From Cryptococcus deneoformans JEC21 (Eukaryota > Basidiomycota > Tremellomycetes > Tremellales > Cryptococcaceae), in assembly GCF_000091045.1 (NCBI RefSeq), contig NC_006692.1:857221-869720 (forward strand): 12,500 bases of DNA, given 5' to 3'. The translations under genes and the position numbers were made by a program. Under the pieces are notes generated by a model, which was not told the origin of the DNA, did no database searches, and worked only from the letters and a program-made list of their open reading frames with translations. Shown one piece after another: positions 7,465 through 9,084 of this stretch (position 1 is its first letter; every line of letters begins with the position of its first letter).

Positions 7465-9084
7465 ATGGTCAAGGCTGTCGTCTGCGGTGCTGCCGGTAAG
7501 CGTCCATCGCCCCAATCCTCGTGCTCGGCATCCGTCGTCCTTGCATCCCACCAGACGGGAACACGTTGCTGACCCTGTCGCCAGGTGGTATCGGTCAACC
7601 CCTCTCCCTCTTGCTCAAGCTCAACCCTCTCATCACTGAGCTCAGTCTCTACGACGTCGTCAATGCGCCCGGTGTAAGTGCTCTATCGTTTACCTTTGTC
7701 CTTTGAAGAAGGCGTGCTTGCTTGAATACGTGAACTCGGGACGCTAACCTCTTATCCGGAAAGGTGGCTGCCGATTTGTCACACATCGCTACTCCCGCCC
7801 AAGTCGCCGGGTTCCTCCCTCCCGACAATGGAGCCGAGAAGGCCCTCAAGGGTGCCGATATCGTTGTCATCCCTGCTGGTGTTCCCAGGAAGCCGGGTAT
7901 GACCAGGGACGACCTTTTTGTGAGTAGATCTTTATCAGTATTGACTACACGGCGCTGACATCGTCTACTCTTAGAACGTGAGCATCTCTTGTATTTCAAG
8001 TCAGACCAGGCTCATTCTCTGTATGACGTGATGTAGATAAACGCTGGCATCTGCGCAACCCTTGCCCAGTCTATCGCCAATGCGTGCCCTGAAGCCTTTA
8101 TCCTTGTCATCTCCAACCCTGTCAACTCCACCGTTCCCGTCTTCGCCGAGACACTCAAGAAGGCTGGTGTTTTCAACCCAAAGAAGTAAGATCTCATTGT
8201 AGTCACAACGGGGACGCAATATCTAATAATCTATAGGCTCTTCGGTGTGAGCCACCTGGATGTTGTTCGGGCTTCCACCTTTGTCGCCTCTGTCCTGGGC
8301 AAGCCTAAAGATGCTGCAAACTATTCCGTGCCTGTCGTGGGAGGCCACTCTGGTGCTACCATCTTGCCCTTGTTGTCTCAGGCTAAGCCCGCTATCGTAA
8401 GCTTTTCGAGAGTTTTGCTTTTTCAGCGTATACTAATCGCACCATTCTAGGCTGAAGTTTTAAGTGATAAGGAGAAGCGGGATGCGCTTGTCCACCGAAT
8501 CCAATTCGGCGGTGACGAGGTCGTCAAGGCAAAAGGTTAATTGCTTATCATCTGTTTATACCTGTGAAATGCTGACCTAACCATCCTCAGACGGTGCTGG
8601 TTCTGCCACCCTTTCCATGGCCCAAGGTGAGGAGTCGCAATTACATTTGCAAATATCATTGCTAATCATCTTTGTCCAGCGGGCGCCGAGTTCGCCGAGT
8701 TCGTGTTGCAGGCCGCGTACGGAAGCCAGAAGGGCAAGGTCGTGCAGTCCTACGTTTTCTTGGGTGCCGACGCCGGTGGTAACGAGGTCAAGAAGGAGAT
8801 CAGCGCCGACCTCGACTACTTTTCCGTCAACGTGGAGCTTGGCGTCAGTGACATCAACCACTTTATTTGATACTTATTGACTCTTGCTTGTAGCCCAACG
8901 GTATTGAGAAGATTTTGCCGATCGGTAAGATTGACGACAACGAGAAAACTCTCCTTGCTGCTGCTGTGAAGGAACTTGGCCCAAGCATTGAAAAGGTACG
9001 TTATTGCCCCGCCTTTATATGCATGATGTCTAACAAAAGGCTATATAGGGCGTTAACTTCCAGCCCCCTCCTCCTAAGCTCTAA
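7465..9084 (+). CDS. MDH: NAD-dependent malate dehydrogenase, mitochondrial-type fold without a presequence, 336 aa
   Basis: Interconverts malate and oxaloacetate with NAD. Exons: 7465-7495, 7585-7673, 7764-7919, 7975-7977, 8037-8185, 8237-8396, 8451-8535, 8591-8626, 8680-8843, 8894-8995 and 9049-9084, all in phase. Visible motifs: the Rossmann GAAGGIGQ (9-15), the NAD-ribose Asp in LYD (34), substrate Arg82 and Arg88 in PRKPGMTRDDLF, Asn120 in NPVNST, Asp151/Arg154 in LDVVRASTF, and the catalytic His180 in GGHSG. The protein begins MVKAVVCGAAGG, directly at the first beta strand, so no mitochondrial presequence is encoded at this start. It ends PPPPKL, a variant of the peroxisomal PTS1. Cytosolic and/or peroxisomal location is therefore more likely than mitochondrial. 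The gene converges on the BRCA2 homologue. Exon 4 is a 3-nt microexon encoding Asn93. Confidence 0.96.
7975..7977 (+). other. 3-nt microexon (AAC, Asn93) of MDH
   Basis: AAC is flanked by a well-formed acceptor (...CTCTTAG, ending 7974) and a donor (GTGAGC, from 7978). Introns 7920-7974 (55 nt) and 7978-8036 (59 nt) are both phase 0. Including it gives DDLF-N-INAGI, which matches the strongly conserved LFN(V/I)NAGI of this enzyme family. Skipping it leaves DDLFINAGI with the conserved Asn missing but the frame intact. Confidence 0.85.

Follow-up and report, generated by a model that had tools for sequence, protein, structure and literature searches.

Can an exon of three nucleotides (nt) be a regular part of the gene for a core metabolic enzyme, and what has become of its codon in the gene models of related fungi? 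The question is raised by a stretch of the genome of Cryptococcus deneoformans JEC21 (contig NC_006692.1, positions 857,221 to 869,720; source genome of 19,051,922 bases in 14 contigs). The stretch is 12,500 nt long and is referred to below as the window, and all coordinates are positions within it. It carries a malate dehydrogenase (MDH) gene in which two consecutive introns are separated by only three bases, AAC. We propose that these bases, the fourth exon of the gene, are a constitutive microexon that is recognised through intron definition and that annotation has dropped from the gene models of many relatives, and we place the probability of this reading at about 85%. The features at the centre of the proposal are as follows.

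7764 to 7919, plus strand: MDH exon 3 of the gene model, ending with RDDLF (GAC CTT TTT) in phase 0.
7920 to 7974, plus strand: intron 3, 55 nt, GTGAGT...TTAG.
7975 to 7977, plus strand: exon 4, the microexon AAC (Asn93), 3 nt, in the gene model and with its residue present in a database protein (P0001).
7978 to 8036, plus strand: intron 4, 59 nt, GTGAGC...GTAG.
8037 to 8185, plus strand: MDH exon 5 of the gene model, starting with ATA AAC GCT (INAGI).

The initial annotation of this DNA had described introns of 55 and 59 nt with nothing but AAC between them; this observation is confirmed, and its coordinates are exact. The three bases are bounded by AG and GT, each belonging to a full-size intron, and since both introns are in phase 0, exon 4 is exactly one codon, that of Asn93. 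Splice-site scores were obtained with matrices built on 8-9 introns of the MDH gene itself and are hence rough. On this scale the donor of intron 3 (TTT/GTGAGT) ranks third of the 12 GT dinucleotides within 80 nt and its acceptor (TTAG) second of 10 AG nearby, with a branch-like CTGAC whose A lies 16 nt before the intron end. The donor of intron 4 (AAC/GTGAGC) ranks first of 10 GT within 80 nt; its acceptor (GTAG) is weak, ranking seventh of eight AG, and CTCAT is the only branch-like motif. Retention of intron 3 brings a stop at the 13th intron codon, retention of intron 4 a frameshift followed by a stop, and retention of both again a stop. When exon 4 is skipped the frame stays open: the direct join of 7919 to 8037 meets no stop and yields, as had been expected at the outset, an enzyme one residue shorter.

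We enumerated every GT-AG or GC-AG intron of at least 35 nt in the interval 7905-8062. The 34 possible introns combine into 12 in-frame models with one intron and four with two. All four two-intron models are free of stops, as are two of the one-intron models, namely the direct join, which leaves out residue 93, and a second one that adds extra residues. The family motif RDDLF[X]INAGI is given by the AAC microexon alone, that is by one of the 16 in-frame readings, and the conserved protein sequence is restored by its inclusion; Asn93 of DDLFNINAGI is thus supplied by AAC, as proposed initially. GC donors and all other junctions were rejected, none of them giving the motif in this enumeration. 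The 117-nt stretch from 7920 to 8036 was also put through 20,000 dinucleotide shuffles, each of which was searched for an internal YAG-NNN-GTRNGY flanked on both sides by 45 nt or more. Such an embedded acceptor-codon-donor arrangement arose in 107 of the 20,000 shuffles, and one with an Asn or Lys codon in only two.

The residue is present in a protein of the same species. P0001 (336 amino acids, C. deneoformans B-3501A), the closest match in the database, is 100% identical to the predicted product over its full length, Asn93 included, and therefore the 3-nt exon is already implied by public annotation of C. deneoformans. Its cluster draws on ncbi, lgn, uniref and nr sources and comprises 18 member sequences and 99 contigs. 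If the lgn contigs are assembled RNA, direct proof of the microexon would follow.

Two lists of 120 best hits gave 239 proteins, all but one of which (P0213) have a recognisable motif. The distance from Arg88 to Asn95 is seven residues in 217 of these 238 MDHs and six in the other 21. Position 93 of the 217 normally spaced enzymes is occupied by Lys (117), Asn (97), Ala (2) or Ser (1); among the best 120 of 7,998 hits the same column holds Lys in 89 and Asn in 10 and is empty in 21. Judged from these alignments, the conserved trait is the presence of a residue at position 93, which keeps the spacing of Arg88 to the invariant Asn95. The original claim of a conserved Asn93 is correct as to the presence of a residue and not as to its identity, and Arg88, which had been placed next to Asn93, lies five residues upstream of it. 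With exon 4 included, the seven-residue distance is kept where the helix after the active-site loop begins. The same spacing, with Asn, is found in 67 of 68 prokaryotic loci taken from genome contigs (L075 has no motif); these loci are not independent, because all 67 carry the search pattern MTRDDLFN, and they are not counted as support. A search of viral contigs for orthologous DNA gave no match.

How might so small an exon be recognised? Introns 3 and 4 are both short, and the donor and acceptor of each would pair across it, either intron being recognised independently of the other. Two sets of splicing factors would scarcely fit on three bases together, so the introns are probably removed in succession. 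The order of removal could go either way, intron 3 having the better branch point and acceptor and intron 4 the better donor. The 117-nt unit corresponds to about two normal introns, when set against the median of 55 nt for introns in the coding sequence of Cryptococcus neoformans (PMC3990503; this and the other papers are cited for the parts consulted). Intron definition, which has been argued for basidiomycetes (PMC2397502), was also the route favoured in the initial annotation, and it would suit two introns this close to the median. It has been argued for microexons as well (PMC8378409): in Caenorhabditis elegans, shortening a flanking intron can free microexons from their need for PRP-40.

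The second half of our question concerns the 21 enzymes that lack the residue. We aligned 38 clusters, the 37 best hits and P0103, all taken as Tremellomycetes from names and identity; Mrakia (P0070), which also belongs to the Tremellomycetes and has Lys at position 93, is not one of the 38. Of these clusters, 17 have residue 93 and 21 lack it. All 21 short clusters fall among the 29 that have no lgn or jgi source: the residue is present in nine of nine clusters with such a source, as against eight of the 29 others (Fisher p = 0.00015; p = 0.0003 without P0001, and p = 0.0002 with Mrakia added, which makes the others nine of 30). Besides P0001, the clusters with an lgn or jgi source number eight, all of them on open-frame contigs of 0.9-1.3 kb that are probably transcripts. 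The eight residue-bearing clusters without such a source come from Dioszegia, Naematelia (two), Papiliotrema, Kwoniella (one), Cutaneotrichosporon (two) and Naganishia. The short clusters have ncbi, uniref and nr sources (P0003 also eukprot) and span Cryptococcus, Kwoniella, Kockovaella, Saitozyma, Tremella, Cryptotrichosporon and Vanrija. No column other than 93 is missing in more than seven of the 37 models. The simplest account of the 21 short models is that the microexon was dropped repeatedly by gene predictors and read aligners, which would join exon 3 straight to exon 5 because the frame stays open. Cryptococcus belongs to the Tremellales and Vanrija to the Trichosporonales, so that if each short case marks a microexon, the microexon would be older than the split between these two orders.

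Two length differences at other exon junctions of the same alignment may be recorded here. Apart from column 93, a deletion falls at an exon junction in just one place: five residues (143-147, at the junction of exons 5 and 6) are absent from two of the 37 models, P0016 (Kwoniella newhampshirensis) and P0020 (K. shandongensis); this gap is perhaps a further splice misannotation or a second small exon. One extra residue follows residue 197, beside the junction of exons 6 and 7 (window 8451-8456), in 19 of the 37 models, either as natural length variation or through a shift of the acceptor.

Two observations complicate the extension of the microexon to relatives. The first is that a tandem acceptor could mimic the sign of a missing residue wherever that residue is Lys. 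The second comes from a fragment search for partial Cryptococcus transcripts, in which the 120 matches listed were mostly distant relatives, together with P0103 (again) and P0191. The latter, 106 amino acids on a 2612-base jgi contig, starts at the first codon of exon 3, runs through DDLFNINAGIC and ends just beyond the end of exon 5 in what looks like read-through into an intron. In this relative both introns around residue 93 seem to be absent while the neighbouring introns are kept. An exon of ordinary size can therefore also carry residue 93, and finding the residue in a short contig is in itself no proof that a microexon is used. Both observations lend some weight to the explanation that the microexon is real here, limited to Cryptococcus or to this species, and that elsewhere the residue was lost from the models in another way, such as a 3-nt acceptor shift at a tandem NAGNAG: several relatives have Lys, whose AAG codon could form such an acceptor, and P0191 suggests a lineage without the two introns. 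The same acceptor error would be needed in many annotations, however, and species with 95-98% identical proteins probably share both introns. We regard this explanation as possible but doubtful.

We consider it improbable that exon 4 is alternatively spliced, so that some transcripts contain it and others do not, with the 21 short models reflecting real messenger RNAs. Skipping preserves the frame, 21 of the 29 Tremellomycete clusters that have neither an lgn nor a jgi source show the skipped form, and exon skipping is named among the splicing events of C. neoformans (PMC3990503). Yet the skipped form occurs in none of the nine clusters with such a source; it would break the spacing kept by 217 of 238 MDHs; and skipping would have to join the donor of intron 3 to a weak acceptor, that of intron 4, bypassing a better-scoring one. 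Structure models count weakly in the same direction. In the full-length model Arg88 is the first residue of the helix; in the short one the helix begins one residue further on, and local confidence at residues 81-90 drops from 80 to 70. The AlphaFold mean predicted local distance difference test score is 93.7 for the full and 92.8 for the short form, and a comparison with the PDB ends in a tie. Stability is poorly judged from such models, and residue 93 is present in each of the 47 other rows of both alignments; the models are compatible with a working and a non-working short form alike and neither show nor exclude either. The initial suggestion of isoforms that differ in one residue near the active site finds no support; among the proteins compared, the skipped form is seen only in the 21 annotated models. 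Less probable again, indeed very much a long shot, is a bolder version, in which a 335-residue MDH has been a real isoform since the ancestor of Tremellales and Trichosporonales and the 3-nt exon acts as a regulated switch, which would slide Arg88 of the active-site loop by one helix position relative to Asn95, tuning or shutting off the enzyme. A single 117-nt intron from 7920 to 8036, in a lineage whose enzyme simply does without residue 93, would be the simplest gene model and is implied by many annotations of relatives, but it is scarcely credible given the residue in the database protein of the same species, the spacing of Arg88 and Asn95, the two shuffles in 20,000 with an embedded Asn or Lys codon, and a length that would make it the longest intron of the gene (the other eight measure 50-90 nt each) and twice the published median.

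A constitutive microexon in the MDH gene has several parallels. The initial annotation called an exon of 3 nt close to the smallest known, and this is right, although exons of 1 nt have already been published for C. neoformans, Fusarium and Arabidopsis. Within the same genus, C. neoformans H99 has exons down to 1 bp that are hard to identify automatically (PMC3990503), and no gene is named for them in the parts consulted. The single-nucleotide exon of Fusarium CYP621A, confirmed by SRA reads (PMC12940212), resembles the MDH case as a tiny fungal exon inferred, there by manual annotation, from a conserved motif with fixed spacing. It differs in that omission of its one nucleotide breaks the frame, whereas omission of the MDH exon leaves the frame open, and in that the latter is predicted from sequence. 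Plant microexons of 1-15 nt are conserved and for the most part unannotated in reference genomes, with intron-free copies in some lineages (PMC8831610); unlike the present one, they were found with 990 RNA sequencing data sets, and some were confirmed by reverse-transcription polymerase chain reaction. In the bglA genes of basidiomycete yeasts, which differ from MDH but likewise have short introns, the smallest exons are larger, at 5 bp in Sirobasidium magnum (Tremellales) and 6 bp in Rhodotorula minuta (PMC9142197), and small exons are also reported from P450 genes of another basidiomycete (PMC1184071). The 3-bp micro-exon 8 of Drosophila homothorax has the same size as MDH exon 4; it is alternatively spliced from a longer exon and gives isoforms with specific functions (PMC7392893), while none are supported for MDH. 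No MDH microexon is named in the titles or abstract openings among the matches listed, a scope that lies mostly outside subscription papers. Of two Cryptococcus annotation papers, one never uses "malate dehydrogenase" in its main text (PMC3990503) and the other never uses the word "malate" (PMC8022950).

The complete gene model occupies 7465-9084 on the plus strand, with 11 exons, 10 GT-AG introns and a predicted product of 336 amino acids that begins MVKAVVCG and ends PPPPKL. Besides exons 3 to 5, given above, the model contains the following exons.

7465 to 7495, plus strand: MDH exon 1, with the start codon at 7465.
7585 to 7673, plus strand: MDH exon 2.
8237 to 8396, plus strand: MDH exon 6.
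8451 to 8535, plus strand: MDH exon 7.
8591 to 8626, plus strand: MDH exon 8, 36 nt.
8680 to 8843, plus strand: MDH exon 9.
8894 to 8995, plus strand: MDH exon 10.
9049 to 9084, plus strand: MDH exon 11, including the stop codon.

All 11 exons are in frame across GT-AG introns, and a frame or assembly error was ruled out on that ground. The identity of the enzyme is borne out by sequence and fold: Pfam reports Ldh_1_N (152.8 bits, cut-off 27) and Ldh_1_C (118.6 bits, cut-off 22.6) when run on P0001, whose sequence is identical, and the top relatives with solved structures are malate dehydrogenases. A genome search with P0001 as query, in which two candidates were scored, gave no further MDH locus; no PF00056 family search stands behind this result. 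The donor of intron 9, GTCAGT (window 8844-8849), is the sole one of the gene's ten donors with C at the third base. Elsewhere in the window, an open frame at 1623-2093 on the plus strand resembles an aldehyde dehydrogenase in its C-terminal part (Pfam Aldedh, E = 3.5e-31) and is probably a piece of a neighbouring gene. Scanning the window for Rfam families and tRNAs yielded no match.

Exons of this size, though rare, have been described before, and the point of interest is that the same codon is recurrently absent from public gene models. An exon of 3 nt tests the reach of intron definition, because the neighbouring splice sites are probably too close for joint occupancy. Among the 29 Tremellomycete clusters backed by nothing but annotation, 21 appear to have a core metabolic enzyme one codon short, and since the frame stays open without the microexon, a simple reading-frame check would not flag the loss. 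An enzyme produced according to one of the short models would probably not work properly. A protein that is one residue short against a fixed motif spacing may be a sign by which other dropped microexons can be found in intron-rich fungi.
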